A stretch of 64,000 nucleotides of DNA from Acidobacteriota bacterium (GTDB lineage: Bacteria; Acidobacteriota; Thermoanaerobaculia; Multivoradales; Multivoraceae): positions 1 through 64,000 of the forward strand of contig QQVD01000006.1 of assembly GCA_003388555.1 (NCBI GenBank), given 5' to 3'. The notes under the pieces were generated by a model that was not told the DNA's origin, did no database searches, and worked only from the letters and a program-made list of their open reading frames with translations. A program made the translations under genes and the position numbers. Positions 1 to 25,152 of the stretch are shown here, piece after piece. Numbering within the stretch: the first letter of the stretch is position 1; each line of letters opens with the position of its first letter.

Positions 1-366
1 AGCGGCTCGGCTCCCGGATTGTTCCTCTGTCGAGGCTGCAGGCTTCTCTTCACTTTGCGGCCCGTGTGCTCGCTCCCCGGCCATCGACTCTCGCCGACCT
101 CCAGGCTTTCGACGCCCCGCTCGGCCGGCGGGGTCTCCCCCGCGCGGCTGGGGCCTGCTACTCGGCGCACCGGCGCTTACCGAGGCGGGACTCTCACCCG
201 CTGGAAACACGCAGCGAGCAGACGAAGACCTCACAGGCCCATCATCGCCTGCTTCACGACGCACCACGGCCGCAGCGTAGCGCAAGCCCCGAGCTCGAGA
301 AGGATCTCGAGCGATCGCGCCCGGATCAGAAGCCCTCGCCGGTGTCCGTCGACCGTGGGCGCCGCA
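1..366. other. Stretch without a recognisable gene
   Basis: I see no convincing coding region here. Open frames on the plus strand give Arg/Pro/Ser-rich translations with no family resemblance and run antisense into the DUF4287 gene that ends at 367. No terminator with a U-run is visible after that gene. The left part may contain the end of a gene lying outside the window, but no frame supports this. Confidence 0.4.
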
Positions 367-927
367 TCAACCCGCCGCTTCGTAGGCCTGGCGCAGCCAG
401 CCAATCAGCTCCTCGTCGACGTCGCCGGGCGCGGCGAGACGCACCCGGTGGCTCACCATCGAGTTGAAGCTGCCGGAGGCCTCGAGGCGCTTCCCGGCCG
501 CGACGCCCGGTAGCTGGATGCCGACGTCGACCCGCGTCTTCGTCGACGGCTGGACGAGCGCGAACTGCTTCTTGCGCCGCAGGCTCACGTAGGCCTTCTT
601 CGGCGCCAGCTCGACGTCGTCACCGAAGCCGCCCACTCGCTCCTCGATGCGACGCCAGATCGGCAGCAGATCCTGCTTGCCGGCGTACTGCGCCGCCACC
701 AGGTCGCCGGCCTCCGAGTGCGAGGCCGCCGAGCGCAGGGTCTCGTGCGCGATCAGGTTGGCGTAGCCGTGGGTGACGCCGTGCTCCTTCTTCAGCAGCG
801 CGACGATCTCGCCGTGCTTGGTGAGGCCGCTGGAAGCGAGCAGTTTCTTCCACTGCTGCAGATCGCGGCCGGTCTTCTCCTCGATCCCGCGCAGCATCGC
901 CTGCGCCTGTTCCTCGGGGGTCGCCAT
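367..927 (-). CDS. DUF4287/DUF5655 domain protein
   Basis: A 186-residue cytoplasmic protein. Residues 1 to about 65 match the DUF4287 pattern (EEKTGRDLQQWKKLL, then KHGEIVALLKKEHGVTHGYAN). Residues of about 75 to 186 match DUF5655 (YAGKQDLLPIWRRIEERV and the basic strand AYVSLRRKKQFALVQPS). The family occurs in many soil bacteria, and I know of no established biochemical role; basic residues in the second domain would allow nucleic-acid or nucleotide binding, but that is a guess. The ATG start at 927 is preceded by AGGAGA with a short spacer, so the much longer upstream open frame was not used. The gene is monocistronic. The AraC-type remnant lies upstream on the same strand. Confidence 0.85.
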   Translation of the reverse strand: MATPEEQAQAMLRGIEEKTGRDLQQWKKLLASSGLTKHGEIVALLKKEHGVTHGYANLIAHETLRSAASHSEAGDLVAAQYAGKQDLLPIWRRIEERVGGFGDDVELAPKKAYVSLRRKKQFALVQPSTKTRVDVGIQLPGVAAGKRLEASGSFNSMVSHRVRLAAPGDVDEELIGWLRQAYEAAG

Positions 928-7303: not shown

Positions 7304-9918
7304 CCTCGCCGCCCGCAACCGTCGACAGGCTGCTCGAGCAGGCAGCCGCGTTGGCGCCGGCGCAGCGCCGCGACTTCCTCGAGCGGGCCGCGAACGGCGA
7401 TCGCGAGCTGATCGCCGAGGTCGAGAGCCTGCTCGAGTTCCTGCCGGCGTCGGAGGGCTTCCTCGAGACGGCGCCCGTGGTGCCGCCGACCCTCGCCGCG
7501 GCGGCCGGCGACCACCGTGTCGACCGTGTCGACCGTGTCGACCGCCGAGGCGAGCGGATCGGGCCTTGGATCCTGCTGCACCCGCTCGGCGCCGGCGGCA
7601 TGGGCTCGGTGCATCTCGCCGAACGGGCCGACGGAGCGTTCGAGAAGCAGGTCGCGATCAAGCTGATCCGCACCGATCTGGGCTCCGCTGCGCTGCGGCG
7701 GCGCTTCCTCACCGAACGCCAGGCCCTGGCTGCCCTGGAGCACCCCAACATCGCCCGGCTGCTCGACGGCGGATCGACCGAGGGCGGAGCTCCCTACCTG
7801 GCGATGGAGTACGTCGAAGGAGGGCGGCCGATCGACGAAGCCTGCCGACGGGAAGGGCTCGCAGAGAGGGAGGTGCTACGACACTTCCTGTCCGTCTGCG
7901 ATGCGGTCCAGTACGCCCACTCTCGGCTGGTGGTGCACCGCGATCTCAAACCGAGCAACGTGCTGCTCGACCGCGACGGGCGCATCAAGCTCGTCGACTT
8001 CGGCATCGCGAAGCTGCTGCAGGAGGAGACGCGAGCCGCCGTCACCGCGCCCCGCGCCTCGTCAGGCGCGCCCGCCGAGACGCTGGCCGGGCCGCGTCCG
8101 CTGACTCCCGCGTATGCCAGCCCGGAGCAGCTGCGTGGCGAGTCGGGTGGGATCGCCACCGACGTCTACTCGCTGGGAATGCTGCTGCACGTCGTGCTCG
8201 CCGGCGAGCTGCCGCCTCGCCAGGGCGAGGCCGGCACGCGGGTCCTGCTGGACGGCGATCTGGCCTGGATCACGAGGCGTGCTCTCGCCGAGGATCCGCG
8301 GCAGCGCTATCCCACCGTGGCCCACCTGGCGCAGGACGTCGAACGCCACCTCAGCCACCACCCGGTCTCCGCCGCGCCCGCCTCGCTGGGTCGTCGCGCC
8401 AGGCTCTTCCACCGGCGCCATCGGCTCGCGGTCTCCCTGGCAGCCGCCATCGTGCTGGCCCTGCTCACCGCGGCCATCGTCAGCACGCGCTCCTACTTCG
8501 CCGCCGACCGCGCCCGTGTGCGAGCGGAGACCGAGCGCAAGGCCGCCGAGCAGGTGAGCGAGTTCCTGGCCACCGTGCTCGGATCGATCGACCCCAACGT
8601 CGCGCAGGGCCGCGACGTCAGCGTGCTGGCCGAGGTGATCCAGCAGGCCGCACGCCGCATCCCCCGCGAGCTCGAGGAACAGCCCGAGGTGGCGGCACGA
8701 CTGCACCGCACCCTCGGCACGGCCTACCGCAGGCTGGCGCGCTACTCCGAAGCGGAGGGCCAGCTGCGCCGCGCGATCGAGCTGCAACGGTCGATCGGAT
8801 CGCCGGATGCGGCGACCCGGATCGAGCTCGGCCGCGTCCTGCTCGACCAGGCGCGTCACGACGAGGCCGACGAGTGGCTCACCCGCACCGTCGAGATCGC
8901 CGAAGCAGAGCACGGCGCGGACTCGGTGCAGCGCGCCGCGGCGCTCGTCGCCCACGGCGAAGCGGCGGGTCTGCTGGGCCAGTCCGACCGCGCCCGGCAG
9001 CTGCTCTCGGCGGCGGTCGAGATCCTGCGCGTCGCTGGCTCCGAGCACGAGCAGGCGCTCGCCGGGGCGCTCGGTGAGCTCGGCTGGCAGCTGGCCACCG
9101 ACCACCGGGCCGACGAGGCCGAGCCGCTCATGCGCGAGGCGCTGGCCCTGCGACGCCGCCACGCCGCCAGCGAGCCCCTCGACCTGCTCGCCGGCCTCGA
9201 GCGGCTCGGCTACACGCTGCGGGTCCAAGGGGAGCTCGACGAGTCGCTCGATTTGTACCGGGAGCAGGTCGACCTCGCCCGGCGCCTGCTCGGCCCGCAT
9301 CACCCGCACTACGGCCTCGCCCTCAGCCACCTCGGCGCCCTGCACGAGGTGCGCGGCGAGCACGACGCTGCGCAGCAGCGCTACCTCGCCGCGCTCGAGG
9401 TGCAGCAGGCGGCGCTCGGCGAAGGGCACCGCGAGGTGGCGACGACGCGCAACAACCTCGGCGGCCTCTACCGCAAGATGGGTCGGTTCGACGACGCGGC
9501 GCAGGAGTTCGGCGCCGCCGCGGCGATCTATCGCGAGGTCTTCGGCGACCAGCACCCGTGGGTGGCGATCGTGCTGCAGAACCTCGCCTACGCCTCGTTC
9601 CGGGCTGGCGACTGGACTCTCGCCGAGCGCCAGCTCAGCGAGTACCTGCAGGCGGCGGCCCGGCACTGGCCCGCCGGTCACTGGCAGATCGTCTGGTTCG
9701 AGGGCATGCGCGGTGCCGTCCTGTTCGAGCTCGGTCGCCGGGAGCAGGGTGAGCGTCTGCTCCGCGACAGCTGGGACTCGCTGCGGCGGGACCTCGGCGC
9801 GGAGGATCGCCGCGTCGACGAGCTGCGCGCCCTGCTGGCGGCGATCTACGAGCGCTCCGGCCGAGCCGACGAGCGACGACGCCTGCTCGCCGAGTCGCCC
9901 GGGTCCGGGGAGGACTGA
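7300..9918 (+). CDS. Transmembrane Ser/Thr protein kinase with TPR domain, module 1
   Basis: An 872-residue PknB-type kinase. It has a short helical N-terminus, a glycine loop GAGGMGS near residue 98, catalytic Lys121, an HRDLKPSN loop near 213, DFG near 233 and the TPAYASPEQL segment. A single membrane helix at about 376-398 separates the cytoplasmic kinase from a C-terminal half made of TPR repeats (for example RNNLGGLYRKMGRFDDAAQEF). The TPR half should be periplasmic if topology follows the family. The GTG start overlaps the sigma-factor stop. An in-frame 9-base repeat encodes RVDRVDRVD at residues 73-81, just before the kinase fold. The gene converges on the next, oppositely oriented kinase with only 39 bases between stops. 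Confidence 0.92.
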   Translation: MTSPPATVDRLLEQAAALAPAQRRDFLERAANGDRELIAEVESLLEFLPASEGFLETAPVVPPTLAAAAGDHRVDRVDRVDRRGERIGPWILLHPLGAGGMGSVHLAERADGAFEKQVAIKLIRTDLGSAALRRRFLTERQALAALEHPNIARLLDGGSTEGGAPYLAMEYVEGGRPIDEACRREGLAEREVLRHFLSVCDAVQYAHSRLVVHRDLKPSNVLLDRDGRIKLVDFGIAKLLQEETRAAVTAPRASSGAPAETLAGPRPLTPAYASPEQLRGESGGIATDVYSLGMLLHVVLAGELPPRQGEAGTRVLLDGDLAWITRRALAEDPRQRYPTVAHLAQDVERHLSHHPVSAAPASLGRRARLFHRRHRLAVSLAAAIVLALLTAAIVSTRSYFAADRARVRAETERKAAEQVSEFLATVLGSIDPNVAQGRDVSVLAEVIQQAARRIPRELEEQPEVAARLHRTLGTAYRRLARYSEAEGQLRRAIELQRSIGSPDAATRIELGRVLLDQARHDEADEWLTRTVEIAEAEHGADSVQRAAALVAHGEAAGLLGQSDRARQLLSAAVEILRVAGSEHEQALAGALGELGWQLATDHRADEAEPLMREALALRRRHAASEPLDLLAGLERLGYTLRVQGELDESLDLYREQVDLARRLLGPHHPHYGLALSHLGALHEVRGEHDAAQQRYLAALEVQQAALGEGHREVATTRNNLGGLYRKMGRFDDAAQEFGAAAAIYREVFGDQHPWVAIVLQNLAYASFRAGDWTLAERQLSEYLQAAARHWPAGHWQIVWFEGMRGAVLFELGRREQGERLLRDSWDSLRRDLGAEDRRVDELRALLAAIYERSGRADERRRLLAESPGSGED
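7515..7541. repeat. 9-bp tandem repeat (CCGTGTCGA), three copies, inside kinase 1
   Basis: Three exact units encode the RVDRVDRVD stretch of kinase 1 between its N-terminal helices and the kinase fold. The unit length keeps the frame, so copy number could vary without breaking the gene. Confidence 0.8.
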
Positions 9919-9957
9919 GGAGCGCGGCCGGCGTGCGCCCGGGTCGCGACGCTCTCG

Positions 9958-12900
9958 TCAACCGCCGCAGCTCTCCAGCTCGGCCAGCAGCTGGTCGGCG
10001 GTCCGCCGCAGCTCGTCGGGCTCCTCCGCCGTGGCACCGGGCCGGCGCGACGCGAGCACCGCCTGGCGCAGCGCAGGACGCAGTGCGCAGGCAGTGTTCC
10101 GATCCTCGGCGTCCAGCGCCAGCCGCACCGCCTCGACCAGCGGCTCGACCGCTCCGTCGCCGCCGTCGCGCAGCCGCACCCTGGCCTGCTCCTCGAGAGC
10201 CTGGAGCAGATAGACCCGGGTCTGCGGCGGCGCCTCGCGCAGCAGCTCGACCGCCCTGTCGAACAGGCCCGCGGCACGTGCCGGCTCCACCTCGAACAGG
10301 CTGCGCCCGAGATTCAGGGCCGCGATGCCGACGTTGGGGTGGCCCGGCCCGAGCGTCGCCTCGAAGCCGGCGAGGGCCTCCTCGAGCAACGGCCTCGCCA
10401 CATCGAAGCGCTGCTGGGCGAGCAGCGCGGAGGCGAGGTTGTGCGCCACCAGGGCGCGGTGCGGATGCTCGGCGGGCAGCTCGGCGAGCGAGAGCTGGCG
10501 CGCCTGCTCGAGCACAGGGAGCGCCTCGACGGAGCGCTCCTCGCGGACCAGCAGGCTTCCCAGGCTCGAAAGCGGCAGGATGAGGCCGGGGTGGCCGTCG
10601 CCGAAGAGCTGGCGCAGGGTCGCGATGGCGGAGCGCATCGCGTCGACCGCCCCGGCGACGTCTCCGGCCTGCGATCGGGCGACCGCTAGGTTGTTGTAGG
10701 TCTCGGCGACGTCGGGATGCAGGTCACCGAAGCGCTGGCGGTAGATCGCGAGTGCCTGCTCGAGCATCTCGAGCGCGAGCTCGGAGTTGCCGAGCCCGCG
10801 CTCGGCTCCGGCGAGATTGCGCAGGCTGTGGGCCACCTCGGCATGGCTCTCACCGTAGACCTGACGCCTCGCCTCCAGGGCGCGGCGCAGCAGCTCGGCC
10901 GCCTCCTCCATCTCGCCGCGCCGCACCAGCAGCACTCCGAGGTCGTTCCAGCTCCGCGCCAGCCCGGGATCCGGCGGCGTGACCTCGAGCAGCCAGGAGT
11001 CGATCGCCTCGCGGTAGAGGGTCTCTGCGCGATCGAGGTCGCCGCTCTCGAGCACCGCGTCGGCGAGATGCTGTGCCGCCTGCGCCAGCTCTCCCGGAGG
11101 GGCTGCGATCGCCTCGCGTTGCTCGTAGGCGTCCTCGAGCTCTTCCAGCGCGCGGCCCCCTTCACCGAGCTCGAGCAGCGCCAGGCCCAGCACCGAGCCG
11201 ACGTCGGCACTGGGCCGCGACGGCTGCGCGGCTCCTGCGAGCAGCAGGCGGGCCTCCTCGGCGAGCCGGCGCGCCGCCTCCGCCTCGCCGACCTCGAGGC
11301 GCAGACGGGCCAGCTCGACCAGCGCCGCCGCAGCCTGAGCACCCTGACCGAGAGCGTGGCGCAGTGCCACCGCACTCGACAACAGACGCTCGGAGTCGTC
11401 GTAGGCGCCGAGCGAGCGGTAGAGGCGGCCCAGCACCTGCTCGATCTCGGCCCGGACCTCCGGCTCTTCGGCCAGGTCGTCGGCGACCCGCGCGGCGCCG
11501 GCGTCGAGCAGCGCCACAGCGGTCACCTGCTCGCCGCGGGCGCGCGCCGGATCGTTGCCCTCGAAGATCTCGGTCAGCAGCTGCACCACACGCTCGGTGC
11601 GCGCGGCGTTACGCTGTGCCTGGCGCGACTGGCTCCAGGTCCCCCAGACGCCGGCGGCGAAGACCACCGCCACGAGGACGCCGGCGCTCAGCGCCACGCG
11701 ATGCCGCCAGGCGAATTTGCGGGCGCGGTACCAGCGGTTGCCGCGCAGCGCGGAGACCGGCCGGCCGCCGCGGAACGCCTCGAGGTCGGTGATCAGCTCA
11801 GCCACCGAGCCGTAGCGACGCGCCGGCTCCTCCTCCAGGCAGCGCTGCACGATGGCGTCGAGATCGCGCGGCACCCTCATGCCCGACTGCGACGGCCGCG
11901 GCGGCGCCAGGCCGGAGGACGGATCGGGACCGCGCGGCGGCCAGTCGGCGGGCCGGGATCCCGCGAGCAGCTCGTAGAGCACGACACCGAGCGAGAAGAC
12001 GTCCGTCGCCAGACTGACCGGCGCTCCCCGCAGCTGCTCCGGCGCCGCGTACTCCGGCGTCGCGGGCGCCCGGCCGGTGCGGGTCAGCGGCTGCTCGCCG
12101 TCGTCGCGCTCGAGCAGGCCGGCGATGCCGAAGTCGAGCAGCTTGACCCGCACGCCGGAGCCGGAGCTTGAGCCGCTGCTGTCGGCGCCCGACGGGGCGT
12201 CGCGTTGGGCGACGAGCACGTTCGAGGGCTTCAGATCGCGGTGCACCACCAGGTTCTCGTGGGCGTACTGCACCGCGCGGCAGGCGGCGAGGAAGAGCTC
12301 GACGATCTGGTCCACCGAAGTGCCGACGCGCTCGCAGTAGGCGGTGATCGGCTCGCCGGAGACCAGCTCCATGGCGAAGTACGGAACGCCGCCGTCGGTG
12401 GTGCCGCCGTCGACCAGGCGGGCGATCCCCGGGTGGTCTAGCCGCGCCAGAATCCGGCGCTCGCGCAGGAAGCGGCGCCGCAGGTCCGGATCGAAGGCGC
12501 CGGCGAGAGGCTGCACTATCTTCAGCGCCACCTGCTGCGCGAAGCGCTCGTCGCCCTCGCCCACCGCGCGTCGGCCGAGGTAGACCTCCCCCATCCCGCC
12601 GCGCCCCAGCGGCCGCTCGACGACGAACGCACCGATCCGGCTGCCGGACACGAACGTCCAACCCTCGCCGGACGCAGCCGCGCTTCTCCCCGCCGAGGGC
12701 TGCGGCCGGGTGGAGTCGGCAGCGCCGCCCGCGGCCCGATCGCCCGGCTCCTCCGCGCCGTAGCGGCGTGGCGACAGGAAGTCGGCGTCGAGGTCGCGGT
12801 CCGCCACGAGCAGGCGGGCGACCTCCTCGGCCAGCTCGGGATCCTCCGCCCGCAGTGCGCGCAGAGCCCGTTGCTGCTCCGCCGACTCGAGACCCGCCCA

Positions 12901-12969
12901 CTCGTCGAAGCAGCGCTCGACACGCTCCCACCGGGCGCGGGCACCATCGCTGCCGGTCTCGGGGCTCAC
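9958..12969 (-). CDS. Transmembrane Ser/Thr protein kinase with TPR domain, module 2
   Basis: A 1003-residue paralogue of the module 1 kinase on the opposite strand. The glycine loop GRGGMGEVYLG is at about 122-132 and the catalytic Lys is residue 150. The HRDLKPSNVLV loop is near 242, with LLDFGIAGLL and TPEYAAPEQLRG following. A membrane helix (VALSAGVLVAVVFAAGVWG) lies at about 421-443. The rest is a long TPR array, including ARSWNDLGVLLVRRGEMEEA and AETYNNLAVARSQAGDVAGA. The start is GTG at 12969, which gives the family-typical N-terminus (RVERCFDEWAGL). Unlike the other two modules, the gene is 93 bases from its sigma factor rather than overlapping it. Confidence 0.92.
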   Translation of the reverse strand: MSPETGSDGARARWERVERCFDEWAGLESAEQQRALRALRAEDPELAEEVARLLVADRDLDADFLSPRRYGAEEPGDRAAGGAADSTRPQPSAGRSAAASGEGWTFVSGSRIGAFVVERPLGRGGMGEVYLGRRAVGEGDERFAQQVALKIVQPLAGAFDPDLRRRFLRERRILARLDHPGIARLVDGGTTDGGVPYFAMELVSGEPITAYCERVGTSVDQIVELFLAACRAVQYAHENLVVHRDLKPSNVLVAQRDAPSGADSSGSSSGSGVRVKLLDFGIAGLLERDDGEQPLTRTGRAPATPEYAAPEQLRGAPVSLATDVFSLGVVLYELLAGSRPADWPPRGPDPSSGLAPPRPSQSGMRVPRDLDAIVQRCLEEEPARRYGSVAELITDLEAFRGGRPVSALRGNRWYRARKFAWRHRVALSAGVLVAVVFAAGVWGTWSQSRQAQRNAARTERVVQLLTEIFEGNDPARARGEQVTAVALLDAGAARVADDLAEEPEVRAEIEQVLGRLYRSLGAYDDSERLLSSAVALRHALGQGAQAAAALVELARLRLEVGEAEAARRLAEEARLLLAGAAQPSRPSADVGSVLGLALLELGEGGRALEELEDAYEQREAIAAPPGELAQAAQHLADAVLESGDLDRAETLYREAIDSWLLEVTPPDPGLARSWNDLGVLLVRRGEMEEAAELLRRALEARRQVYGESHAEVAHSLRNLAGAERGLGNSELALEMLEQALAIYRQRFGDLHPDVAETYNNLAVARSQAGDVAGAVDAMRSAIATLRQLFGDGHPGLILPLSSLGSLLVREERSVEALPVLEQARQLSLAELPAEHPHRALVAHNLASALLAQQRFDVARPLLEEALAGFEATLGPGHPNVGIAALNLGRSLFEVEPARAAGLFDRAVELLREAPPQTRVYLLQALEEQARVRLRDGGDGAVEPLVEAVRLALDAEDRNTACALRPALRQAVLASRRPGATAEEPDELRRTADQLLAELESCGG

Positions 12970-18618: not shown

Positions 18619-18622
<4 letters not shown>
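18008..18622 (+). CDS. ECF-type RNA polymerase sigma factor, module 3
   Basis: A 204-residue sigma factor with the same architecture as the other two modules. Region 2 shows DRLVEEAYGDLRAIASRQ, TALVHELYVKIVG and RDRAHFLASCAAAMRHILVD, with the basic RAGRQKRG segment following. Region 4 is RLVQVFECRYFGGFSSQETA then LTLRTAQRDWQRARAWL. The ATG at 18008 gives the usual short N-terminus; no strong ribosome-binding site is seen. A TAGCCT hexamer at 17929-17934 could be a -10 box, which would give a leader of about 70 bases. The 244-base divergent region from the FG-GAP gene shows no other clear signal. The stop overlaps the GTG of the kinase by 4 bases. Confidence 0.9.
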
Positions 18623-21567
<2,945 letters not shown>

Positions 21568-21571
21568 GCGC

Positions 21572-22738
21572 CTAGGGCGCCACCACCACGTCGACGTCCT
21601 GCTTCCAGTCGGGGAAACGCGCCACCCGCAGCTGCAGCTTCAGCTCCCAGCTGAGCTGGTTGTTCGGCGCCCGGAACGACGGCCCCGCGTTCTCGGGGAT
21701 CCGCACCGCGCCCTGCAGCCGCACCGGACGGTTGGCCATCAGCTGCTGGCCGGGCGCCAGCTCGACCTCGTGGTCGTAGAGCTCGTGAGTGCGCGTCGTC
21801 TTGTTGGTGCCGCTGCCGCTGACCACCCGCTCGTAGCCGCGCAGCTTGGCGGTCAGGCCCTGCAGCTCGGTGGCCTTGCTGGCGGAGAAGGCGAGGCGCA
21901 CCTCGAGCCCGTCGCCGGCCCGCGCCACGCGCGGCTGCACGTCGAGATCGATGGTGCCGAAGCGGCCCTTCAGCAGGCGCCAACGCACCAACGAGACGAT
22001 CAGCCCGGAGACGATCGCGAGCAGGATGCCGCCGAAGACCAGCCCGACCACGCTCCCCGCCCAGTCGCCGGCACGCACCGCCTGGATGCCCTCCCAGGCA
22101 GCCCTCCCCATCAGCCCGGCTCCACCGACCAGCACCGCGAGGATGATCGCCAGGCAGCCGCAGCCGAACACGGTCCCTACGGGGTTCGATCGCGCCTTGT
22201 CGAAGGCTCCGGCCAGCCCGCCGCGCTGCAGCGGGCTCGCCTCCGCCTCGGGGCCGGAGGCGGCGCTCGCCAGCTCCTCCCCGAGCCTCTCGGTGCGCAG
22301 CTCGCTCGGGACCAGCGCCGGATCGGCGAACTGGCGGCGCCAGTCGATCTCCTGCCCCGTCTCGTCGCCCGGCAGGAGGCTGATCTCGAGCTCGGCCTTG
22401 GGATCGAGCTTCCACGGCACGTCGGCGCGCGCCCGCAGGAACCAGCCGACGTTCAGGTAGTGGCCGTGGTAGGTCGCCGGGCCCGCCGGCAGCTCGAGCT
22501 CGAAGCCGTAGCGCACCGTCGTCGCGCCGGTCCACTCGCCCGAGAACAGCTCGACGCGGACCGGGTCGCCGGCGGCGCGGTTGCCGCGCCCGTGGGTCTC
22601 CCAGCCGAGCGACACCTCGAGCCCGTCGCAGCGCATCGAATCGTCGGTCTGCACCAGCACCGCTCCGCGCACGCGGTCTCCCGGGTGGAAGACGGTACGG
22701 CTCTCGTCGAGCTCGATCGAAAGGTCACACTTGGCCAT
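21572..22738 (-). CDS. Arrestin-like membrane protein (two arrestin-type domains flanking two helices)
   Basis: A 388-residue protein. Residues 1-125 look like an arrestin/Spo0M-type beta-sandwich (LSIELDESRTVFHPGDRVRG, then LELPAGPATYHGHYLNVGWF, LRARADVPWKLDPK). Residues of about 188-210 and 228-251 are two hydrophobic helices with a CGC at the first. Residues 258-388 form a second beta-rich domain (GTIDLDVQPRVARAGDGLEV, then NAGPSFRAPNNQLSWELKLQ). This split by membrane helices is unusual for the fold. No catalytic motif is seen; a scaffold or adaptor role is an inference. The ATG at 22738 lies within the last codons of the ATPase gene (14-base overlap), with GGGAGGA as ribosome-binding site, so the two are translationally coupled. 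Confidence 0.7.
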   Translation of the reverse strand: MAKCDLSIELDESRTVFHPGDRVRGAVLVQTDDSMRCDGLEVSLGWETHGRGNRAAGDPVRVELFSGEWTGATTVRYGFELELPAGPATYHGHYLNVGWFLRARADVPWKLDPKAELEISLLPGDETGQEIDWRRQFADPALVPSELRTERLGEELASAASGPEAEASPLQRGGLAGAFDKARSNPVGTVFGCGCLAIILAVLVGGAGLMGRAAWEGIQAVRAGDWAGSVVGLVFGGILLAIVSGLIVSLVRWRLLKGRFGTIDLDVQPRVARAGDGLEVRLAFSASKATELQGLTAKLRGYERVVSGSGTNKTTRTHELYDHEVELAPGQQLMANRPVRLQGAVRIPENAGPSFRAPNNQLSWELKLQLRVARFPDWKQDVDVVVAP

Positions 22739-23405
22739 CGCATTCCTCCCTCACACCGTCGATCCGGCGTTGGTAGATGTCGTACAGCTCGCCCAGCGCC
22801 GAGCGCAGATCGTCGCCGTGGCGGGCGTGCAGATCCGCCAGCCCGCCCTCCGCCAGCCGCGGCAGCGGCCCCGCGGCCAGCCGGGCCCACTCGAGCCGGC
22901 GCTCGACGATCGCCTCGAAGGTGGGCAGATCGAGGCCGGCGACCGTCTCGGTGCGGACCTCGTACCCGGCCCGGCGCAGCTCGCCTTCCAGGTCCTCGTG
23001 GGTGGCCAGGGCGATGCGATCGAGACGCCGCAGCAGCGCGCGCAGACGCCGAGTCGGCAGACGCTGCGCCTCGTCGAGCAGCAGCATCCCGCTCCCCGGC
23101 AGCGCCGGGATCGGCTCGCCCTCGGCCAGGTAGACGTACGGCGGAGCCGGCTCGACCAGCGCCCGCAGCGCCAGCAGGCGCGCCGTCTTGCCGCGACCGC
23201 AGTCGCCGATCAGCTGCAGGGCATGGCCAGGGAGAGCCAGCCAGGCCGTCATCTCGCCCAGATCCGCGACGACCAGCAGAGCCAGCTCCTCTTCGGTCGG
23301 CTCGCCGAACGGATTGCGCCGCAGGTTGAGGCGGGCGTAGGGCGAGCCCAGGCCGCCTCGGGGTGAGAGCGGCACGGGCTCCAGCACGGAAAGGAGCGTC
23401 GGCAC
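22725..23405 (-). CDS. ExeA/GspA-like AAA ATPase
   Basis: A 226-residue ATPase. Near the N-terminus is the family motif RLNLRRNPFGEPTEEE. Walker A is GDCGRGKT at about 67-74 and Walker B is MLLLDEAQ at 107-114. The C-terminal helices (LPTFEAIVERRLEWAR) resemble the AAA lid. Family members such as ExeA/GspA or MSHA-associated ATPases energise assembly of membrane or envelope complexes; here there is no peptidoglycan-binding or membrane segment, so it is a minimal form. The GTG start at 23405 has no ribosome-binding site but a TACCAT hexamer 6 bases before it, which suggests a leaderless mRNA. It overlaps the downstream arrestin-like gene by 14 bases, making them probable partners. Confidence 0.75.
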   Translation of the reverse strand: MPTLLSVLEPVPLSPRGGLGSPYARLNLRRNPFGEPTEEELALLVVADLGEMTAWLALPGHALQLIGDCGRGKTARLLALRALVEPAPPYVYLAEGEPIPALPGSGMLLLDEAQRLPTRRLRALLRRLDRIALATHEDLEGELRRAGYEVRTETVAGLDLPTFEAIVERRLEWARLAAGPLPRLAEGGLADLHARHGDDLRSALGELYDIYQRRIDGVREECDGQV

Positions 23406-23457: not shown

Positions 23458-25152
23458 CTACGAGCCGAAGCTCTCGACGAAGCGCTGCTCGCAGTCGAAG
23501 GCGCCGATCAGCACCACGCGCCCCCCCGCCGTCAGCTCGGTGTCCGGCGGCGGGTTGATGGTGCGCACGCCGCCCGCGTCTTCCACCGCCGCGACCGTCG
23601 CCCCGGTGCGCTCGCGGATGCCGCTGTCGAGGATCTTCCTGCCCACCAGGGATGGAGGCACCTGCAGCCGGAAGAGAACCAGCCCCTCGGCGACGATCAT
23701 CACCGAGGTGATGTCGAGAGCGTTGAACAGCAGGGTGCTGCCCATCGACGCGTAGGAGAGTACGAAGTCGGCGCCGGCGCGGTGGATCGAGTTCACCGTG
23801 CGCTGGTCGGTGGCGCGGCAGAGGATCTGCGCCGTCGGGTGCAGCTTGCGGCAGTAGAGCGTCAGGTAGACGTTCAGCTCATCGTCGTGCGGCGTGATGA
23901 TCACCGTCGTCGCCTCGTCGATCCCCGCCTCTTGCAGTACACGCAGCTCGGCCGCGTTGCCGAGCACCCAGCGCTCGTCCTGCTCCGGCCGGGTGGGGTT
24001 CTTCTCGACCACCCGGTAGTCGATGCCGCGCAGGCCGAGCGAGCGCGCGACGGTGCGGCCGACCCTGCCGCCACCGAGGATCAGCACCTTGCCGTGTGGC
24101 TGCGTCGAGTCGCCGAAGACGCGGTTGTAGGTCTCGATCTGCTGCTTGGTGCCGGCGAGCAGCAGCACGGTGTGGTCGGTGAGCAGCAGGTCGGCGTCGA
24201 CCGGCTCGAAGGCGCCGCGCTCCCACACCCCGACGATGCCGAGGCCGGTGCGCGCACGCACCCCACACTCCTTCACCGTCTTGCCGGCGAGCTCGGTGCC
24301 GTCGGTGCTCGCTTCGGCGATGAGCAGCTGGTCGAAGTTGCCGATGACGTGCGCGTGGTGCGAGCCGCCGACCACCCGCCGCGCCAGCGCCGCCCCCATC
24401 AGGCTGGAGAGGTGCAGCACCTGCTCGCAGTCGGCCAGGGCGAGGATGTCGATCGACGCCGCGTCGTCGGCGGTGGCGATGATCGGCACCCGCTTGCTCA
24501 CCTCGCGCACCGTCGAGGCGATCAGGGTGTTGGCCGGGTCGCTGCCGGTCGCCGCGATCAGCGCCGCGTCCTCGGCGCGCACCAGGCGATAGGTCTCCGG
24601 GTCGTCGGTGCGGCCGACCACCACCTCGTAGCCGTGGTCGAGCAGCCGCAGCCCCTCGTCGGTGTCGCTCACCAGCAGGCAGTACTCGTGACCGTAGCTC
24701 TCGAGCCGCCGGATGAAGGCCGCCGCCACCGCGTCGAGGTGGGTGATCACCACGTGGCCCCGGGTGCCGGGCTTCAGCGAACGCGGCGTGCGCGCCGCCG
24801 TCTGCGCCTTCATCCACGGCTGGTAGAAGAACTCGATGAAGATGAACGGCAGCAGCACCAGCAGGAAGAGCATGCCGCTGAGCAGCACCACGATCGAGAA
24901 CAGGCGGCCGGTGTCGGTGTGGAAGGTGATGTCGCCGAAGCCCAGCGTCGACATCACCGTGAGCACCCAGTAGAACGACGTCACCCACGACTGCTCCTGG
25001 CCCTCCTGCGCCATCAGCACCTTGAAGACCAGCGCGTAGAAGCTGACCATCGCCACCAGGATGGCGAGGAACCGGATCAGCACCCCCATGCGCGGCCGCT
25101 GGCCGCCGCGGGTGGCCAGGATGGTGGCGATCTCGCCGGCGAGGATCTTCAT
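23458..25152 (-). CDS. Potassium channel with tandem RCK (TrkA-N/TrkA-C) domains
   Basis: A 564-residue inner-membrane channel. Two helices (about 24-46 and 83-108) flank a pore loop with the K+ selectivity filter TLGFGD at 69-74. The cytoplasmic part has a first RCK domain (HVVITHLDAVAAAFIRRLE onward) and a TrkA-C-like region. A second Rossmann domain follows (KVLILGGGRVGRTVARSLGL, with acidic VVEKNP after strand 2), and a final TrkA-C domain ends near 564. Such channels gate K+ flux in response to Ca2+, nucleotides or redox ligands; the first Rossmann unit lacks a clear GxGxxG, so the second may bind the nucleotide. The ATG at 25152 is preceded by a TAGAAT hexamer but no ribosome-binding site. 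Confidence 0.9.
   Translation of the reverse strand: MKILAGEIATILATRGGQRPRMGVLIRFLAILVAMVSFYALVFKVLMAQEGQEQSWVTSFYWVLTVMSTLGFGDITFHTDTGRLFSIVVLLSGMLFLLVLLPFIFIEFFYQPWMKAQTAARTPRSLKPGTRGHVVITHLDAVAAAFIRRLESYGHEYCLLVSDTDEGLRLLDHGYEVVVGRTDDPETYRLVRAEDAALIAATGSDPANTLIASTVREVSKRVPIIATADDAASIDILALADCEQVLHLSSLMGAALARRVVGGSHHAHVIGNFDQLLIAEASTDGTELAGKTVKECGVRARTGLGIVGVWERGAFEPVDADLLLTDHTVLLLAGTKQQIETYNRVFGDSTQPHGKVLILGGGRVGRTVARSLGLRGIDYRVVEKNPTRPEQDERWVLGNAAELRVLQEAGIDEATTVIITPHDDELNVYLTLYCRKLHPTAQILCRATDQRTVNSIHRAGADFVLSYASMGSTLLFNALDITSVMIVAEGLVLFRLQVPPSLVGRKILDSGIRERTGATVAAVEDAGGVRTINPPPDTELTAGGRVVLIGAFDCEQRFVESFGS

Follow-up and report, generated by a model that had tools for sequence, protein, structure and literature searches.

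An ATPase gene overlapping an arrestin gene

The window, by which we mean the whole stretch of 64,000 nucleotides analysed (contig QQVD01000006.1 of an Acidobacteriota bacterium), carries on its minus strand a gene for a predicted minimal AAA+ ATPase followed downstream by a gene for a predicted bi-lobed arrestin. The genes and features of the locus are given below, residue numbers referring to the encoded protein.

18619-21567, plus strand: Ser/Thr kinase with TPR repeats, convergent, its end lying 4 bases from the end of the arrestin gene
21572-22738, minus strand: predicted bi-lobed arrestin gene with a membrane hairpin between the lobes, 388 aa
21578-21949, minus strand: predicted arrestin C-lobe, residues 264-387
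21959-22183, minus strand: predicted two-helix membrane hairpin, residues 186-260, hydrophobic cores 187-205 and 230-248
22376-22729, minus strand: predicted arrestin N-lobe, residues 4-121, matching the ARRDC3 N-lobe with Z 14.9
22725-22738, minus strand: overlap of the ATPase and arrestin reading frames, 14 bases
22725-23405, minus strand: predicted minimal AAA+ ATPase gene, 226 aa, GTG start
22782-22817, minus strand: sensor-2-like GDDLR..LY motif of the ATPase, residues 197-208
23058-23084, minus strand: Walker B LLLDEAQRL, residues 108-116
23184-23207, minus strand: Walker A GDCGRGKT, residues 67-74
23301-23327, minus strand: N-terminal NLRRNPFGE motif of the ATPase, residues 27-35
23458-25152, minus strand: TrkA-N potassium channel gene, upstream of the ATPase gene

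The 14-base overlap of the two frames, which is also found in the genomes G152 and G736, agrees with the coupled expression proposed in the initial annotation of this DNA. Both genes are under purifying selection, with dN/dS values of 0.12 and 0.11 calculated from one close Rubripirellula pair. A promoter and terminator scan was uninformative, with no promoter-like site and a single terminator-like one, which is on the plus strand. On that strand, an ECF sigma factor gene (PF07638) ends at 18622 and overlaps the kinase-TPR gene by 4 bases, and more kinase-like ORFs are present near this kinase, at about 8002-12969.

Predicted structures of the two proteins

The Pfam Arrestin_N model matched the window protein with 36.6 bits (cut-off 24.9) and all 8 fused members of alignment A3 at E <= 0.1. 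Arrestin_C was matched at the same threshold by 7/8 of these members, the window protein itself being without a match. The predicted structure consists of a beta-sandwich lobe, two helices (residues 186-222 and 226-260) and a second beta-sandwich lobe. This model, built from 7 sequences, is of moderate confidence (mean pLDDT 74.7, pTM 0.55), with residues 144-193 below pLDDT 50 and an uncertain arrangement of the lobes. Its best match among solved structures was the retromer subunit Vps26 (Foldseek E 9e-15), and a second look at this match gave Z 18.1 and an rmsd of 6.6 for 253 residues aligned over 1..388 of the model. Retriever VPS26C, ARRD-6, the N-lobe of ARRDC3 and arrestins came next, and profile matches were obtained with ARRDC3 and TXNIP. 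The window protein is thus predicted to be a single arrestin in which two beta-sandwich lobes follow each other in the N-to-C order. The initial annotation had described an arrestin-TM-arrestin protein, as both the Pfam match and the model of two lobes around a two-helix hairpin bear out; its two arrestin-type domains are indeed present, but as the N- and C-lobe of one arrestin and not as independent arrestins. None of the Pfam and profile searches matched the gene to an enzyme family, a match which, according to the same annotation, would have spoken against a new system.

A bi-lobed arrestin fold over the whole chain is what the window protein has in common with Vps26 and the alpha-arrestins ARRDC3 and TXNIP. 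It differs from them in being bacterial, in carrying a membrane hairpin between the lobes and in having an operonic AAA+ partner, and some of its bacterial relatives have their lobes split into two genes. PPxY motifs, through which alpha-arrestins recruit ubiquitin ligases, are also lacking from the window arrestin, whose sequence is without any PP pair. Spo0M is likewise a prokaryotic protein of the arrestin clan, and 2/8 aligned arrestin members matched the Spo0M model; in contrast, the window arrestin gave no match to this model (PF07070) at E <= 1 and has, in addition, a membrane hairpin and a partner ATPase. In the 2008 paper PMC2515105, Spo0M alone is reported as the prokaryotic branch of the clan.

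In a scripted hydropathy scan, 9/13 fused relatives showed two separate hydrophobic segments and the other 4/13 a single merged stretch. In the nine relatives with two segments, three to five positive charges occur within the 15 residues after the second one, which suggests that both arrestin lobes are cytosolic. Five planctomycetal and Gemmatimonadota fused arrestins (L021, L022, L024, L025 and L034) are extended at the C-terminus by some 100 residues or more, a region that had no clear Pfam match.

The model of the ATPase (pLDDT 81.9) corresponds to a bare AAA+ domain, the chain of 226 aa ending at the lid helix, in keeping with the minimal ATPase devoid of membrane or peptidoglycan-binding parts that had been annotated. 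The best fold matches on second look were a chain of the Drosophila ORC-Cdc6 complex (Z 12.4, 187 residues aligned), RFC, Hda (Z 12.3, 175 aligned) and DnaA, so that the protein is predicted to be a minimal AAA+ domain of the Orc/clamp-loader type. It shares the AAA+ core with these proteins and differs from them by the lack of a winged helix or DNA-binding part; the bacterial family is further distinguished by its arrestin partner, by the N-terminal NPF motif and by the many members without the Walker B acid.

Motifs were counted over 39 family members, 14 of fused type and 25 of split type (the latter architecture is described below). NPF, NPY or NPL is found near the N-terminus in 38/38 relatives having that end, the Walker A GK[ST] is kept in 38/38, and a His lies in the sensor-1 region of 38/39. 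The Arg of the G[DN].R..LY-type motif is present in 38/38 ATPases; GDDLR..LY is presumably sensor 2, judging by its position and motif. Walker B is far more variable. The fused-type ATPases have DE (11), DD (1) or DS (2), DS being the form of both gammaproteobacterial proteins, and the window ATPase has DE, with the catalytic acid present. The split-type ATPases have DG (23), DT (1) or DS (1), with neither DE nor DD in any of the 25.

Conservation and co-inheritance of the pair

In two other acidobacterial genomes, the pair was recovered with identities of 41-47% for the arrestin and 48-50% for the ATPase, and in the Acidobacteriota G000, G152 and G067 both proteins are encoded together in unchanged order. 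Scanning the contigs of the named genomes with the arrestin alone gave no loci. The ATPase alignment A2, used alone on the named genomes, gave eight loci: one acidobacterial (G152), five planctomycetal, one from Gemmatimonadota and one from Pseudomonadales. An arrestin gene lies directly downstream of the ATPase gene at 6/8 of them, the exceptions being L023, which has a different neighbour, and L027, which stops at a contig end; in the genome of L027, the other half of the ATPase adjoins the arrestin on another contig. A full-length arrestin is encoded in 7/7 genomes of L021 to L027. Eight pairs showed overlaps of 14, 14, 19, 35, 35, 19 and 4 bases and, once, a 1-base gap; the overlap is 14 bases in the gammaproteobacterium G736, and a gap of 48 bases separates the genes of G271. 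Arrestin and ATPase are therefore a conserved unit of adjacent genes, overlapping or almost touching, that has been kept together in four phyla (Acidobacteriota, Planctomycetota, Gemmatimonadota and, for the fourth, Gammaproteobacteria).

Both profiles were then run on 739 sampled genomes (199 Planctomycetota, 247 Acidobacteriota, 150 Gemmatimonadota and 143 from the class of the Pseudomonadales genome). The ATPase was found in 31/739 genomes (22, 6, 1 and 2, in the same order) and the arrestin in 57/739 (35, 14, 5 and 3), including 31/31 of those with the ATPase, which answers the annotation's proposal that co-occurrence be checked across genomes. After removal of the 10 seed genomes, the arrestin was present in 21/21 ATPase genomes as compared with 47/729 genomes overall (Fisher p = 7e-28, relatedness being ignored). 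The ATPase count in Planctomycetota was set by the gap between 2.3e-24 and 6.6e-9, since some P-loop match appears in 195/199 of these genomes at a looser threshold of 0.001; an E <= 1e-12 threshold was used for the ATPase profile in the other three groups.

The two genes adjoin at 29/33 ATPase places, one of them (G318) by way of a piece at a contig end, so that the adjacency, whose absence from relatives would have spoken against a system, is conserved. The 4/33 unlinked ATPases belong to G249, G446, G389 and G277; the last three have gene neighbourhoods in common and keep both parts, unlinked. At L122, L123 and L124, the unlinked split-type ATPase genes of three related planctomycetes, the common surroundings include genes for fatty-acid synthesis, judged by eye to be plsX-like, fabD-like and fabF-like. 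No ATPase was found in 26/57 arrestin-positive genomes, which carry mostly partial or divergent arrestins, the full-length ones including those of G293, G343 and G519. The ATPase is therefore not always needed.

Weak arrestin matches led to a second, split architecture, in which a membrane protein ending in an arrestin C-lobe is followed by a small N-lobe gene and then by the ATPase gene. Each split module is homologous to its fused counterpart, as shown by comparisons of profiles for the ATPases (E 2.3e-15, spanning the chain between the NPF motif and the LYD end), the N-lobes (E 1e-16) and the C-lobes with hairpin (E 9.2e-21). Both forms occur in G067, G247, G248, G250 and G253, and in G443 a C-lobe and then an N-lobe are joined in one reading frame. 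DUF3592 was also present in 7/10 examined split-form C-lobe membrane proteins. In several planctomycetes, a small RNA polymerase alpha-CTD-like gene was seen upstream of the split operon (L035, PF03118; L131, L132, L139 and L140).

Trees were calculated for 33 of the 39 ATPase loci, as linked sets, leaving out the four unlinked ATPases as well as G318 and the fused copy of G253, which are broken over contigs. The fused form is one clade with a support of 1.0 in the ATPase tree and in the arrestin tree. Within the fused form, the distance matrices of the two proteins were correlated with r = 0.78 (n=10), and within the split form with r = 0.71 (n=21), values that 0/5000 permutations reached in either case; the two copies of G248 were also left out of these correlations. 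An initial correlation of 0.95 for the fused form was replaced, as it included a near-duplicate and G443, whose lobes share a single ORF and which falls in the split clade; without them it is 0.78. In the trees, the gammaproteobacterial pairs are neighbours of planctomycetal pairs, and the pair from Gemmatimonadota groups with those of Acidobacteriota or Planctomycetota. Such mixing of phyla suggests that the pair has been transferred between lineages as a unit; the correlation of the trees would also be given by plain joint vertical descent.

When the ORFs of 45 loci were clustered, the groups obtained were those of the pair itself (arrestins and ATPases), of kinases, of an ABC-type ATPase present at six loci and of genes in lineage-specific synteny, such as the RNA polymerase alpha-CTD-like gene; spurious antisense ORFs of GC-rich DNA formed clusters as well. 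This clustering of 45 loci found no generally conserved third gene, in agreement with the earlier statement that no neighbour explains the pair.

Possible action of the pair and related genes

The domains, their order, the overlap, the co-occurrence and the co-inheritance are observed, and this joint evidence argues that arrestin and ATPase act on one thing. The reading that we favor, to which we give a probability of roughly 0.45, is that of one functional unit made of a membrane-tethered arrestin scaffold and a dedicated AAA+ nucleotide switch for lobe closure or client binding. Arrestin folds serve as scaffolds that bind the tails of membrane proteins, an established role of eukaryotic arrestins and of Vps26. 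Both lobes of the bacterial protein would be cytosolic and tethered to the inner membrane through the intervening hairpin, and the small ATPase, translationally coupled on the common message, would bind this scaffold. Depending on the ATP state of the ATPase, the lobes would close either on one another or on a client, which could be a membrane protein or a peptide. The split form hints at what may be switched, namely whether the N-lobe docks on the C-lobe in the membrane, a step that the ATPase would control. Physical contact, switch-like action and client binding are what we infer from this evidence, as is the cytosolic topology from the positive charges after helix 2.

A quite different use of ATP was put forward by the initial annotation, in which the ATPase would drive membrane remodelling or the assembly of a complex. 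Such a motor would oligomerise and use ATP hydrolysis for the assembly, extraction or remodelling of an arrestin-held membrane complex, and it is favored by an AAA+ fold with its Walker A, by the sensor-2-like Arg of 38/38 ATPases and by the Walker B DE of 11/14 fused-type ATPases, the one of the window included. However, the residue after the Walker B D is G, T or S throughout the 25 split-type ATPases and S in both gammaproteobacterial ones, and the protein consists of the AAA+ core only, with no extra domain to grip a substrate. A drive of membrane remodelling is weakened, since the split-form ATPases have lost the catalytic acid, and we regard the motor as doubtful. A switch fits better than a motor because ATP binding is strictly kept and the catalytic Walker B acid is often lost; judging from these motifs, ATP binding is retained and fast hydrolysis seems unneeded. 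ATPases without the Walker B acid may still hydrolyse ATP, as a nearby acid (DGAE) could take its place, in the way known from STAND NTPases.

The kinases found beside some pairs raise the question of phospho-dependent signalling, in which the arrestin would read membrane proteins phosphorylated by Ser/Thr kinases and the ATPase would act as regulator. A protein kinase gene directly adjoins four fused loci, being convergent at 4 bases in the window and lying upstream at 21 bases in G067, 3 bases in G297 and 10 bases in G736 (a RIO kinase). Such kinases are nevertheless common in these genomes, with three kinase-like ORFs in 30 kb of the window, and most other loci are without an adjoining kinase, which makes this explanation unlikely. 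We consider still less likely an antiphage or stress-sensing NTPase module, for which one may cite the patchy distribution, the phylum-mixing trees that suggest transfer as a unit, and the weak NACHT and STAND matches of the split-type ATPases. Against it, neither protein matched any PADLOC protein model at E <= 1, no effector domain was found, and no defence gene is among the named neighbours. Nor was a match found for the ATPase in phage records, for the arrestin in plasmids, or for any relative in the viral contigs scanned. The annotation had also likened the ATPase to ExeA/GspA; as such a helper, it would insert an envelope complex across the peptidoglycan, the arrestin standing in for GspB. 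What the two have in common is a generic AAA_22-type ATPase: most ATPase members (12/15 at E <= 0.1) matched the Pfam model AAA_22, but the window ATPase stays below its cut-off (15.3 vs 27 bits), and E. coli GspA, compared as one sequence and not as a profile, aligned with a probability of 28 (hhalign) over 102 columns of the P-loop region only. The closest folds are those of Orc/Cdc6, clamp loaders, DnaA and Hda; GspA is not among the solved chains listed in the fold search, an absence that excludes nothing. As the protein also lacks membrane and peptidoglycan parts, and secretion genes, Gsp or other, are absent from the named neighbours, a specific relationship to ExeA/GspA is not supported, and the helper is very improbable, being mostly refuted. 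Two unrelated genes adjacent by chance would account for the 4/33 unlinked ATPase genes and for some arrestins being without an ATPase; the 31/31 co-occurrence, the two architectures and the matching trees effectively refute this by counts.

Going beyond the switched scaffold, the pair may include a true bacterial arrestin adaptor, Vps26-like and located at the inner membrane, that would capture (perhaps phosphorylated) membrane-protein tails and sort, cluster or silence the proteins under ATP-switched AAA+ control. We hold this to be a speculative extension and rather unlikely; if true, it would be a functional counterpart of the eukaryotic arrestin and retromer adaptors, with one form in which the arrestin lobes are separate proteins needing assembly on the membrane. 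In eukaryotes, arrestin-fold proteins organise membrane-protein signalling and trafficking. The folds of both bacterial proteins are known; their combination as a system was not found described in the openly licensed papers searched. In line with the candidate undescribed two-gene system suggested at the outset, the pair, which travels together across four phyla, is indicative of an arrestin-based bacterial machine not described so far. Its presence in four phyla and in two architectures offers a concrete genetic handle on bacterial arrestin roles, and the natural split-lobe versions allow tests of how lobe assembly is controlled.

Other arrestin genes were met in these genomes. Arrestin-hairpin-arrestin units are contained in larger reading frames of 402 to 1066 aa at L048, L049, L050 and L148, with no adjacent ATPase detected, and occur as two genes in tandem at L072 (G318) and L073 (G258). 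A further family of membrane proteins (L009, L011, L110, L112, L114-L117, L147, L149 and L151), in which no N-lobe or ATPase was detected, has a C-lobe-like arrestin domain followed by further sequence, and its hosts are Acidobacteriota, Gemmatimonadota and one gammaproteobacterium.
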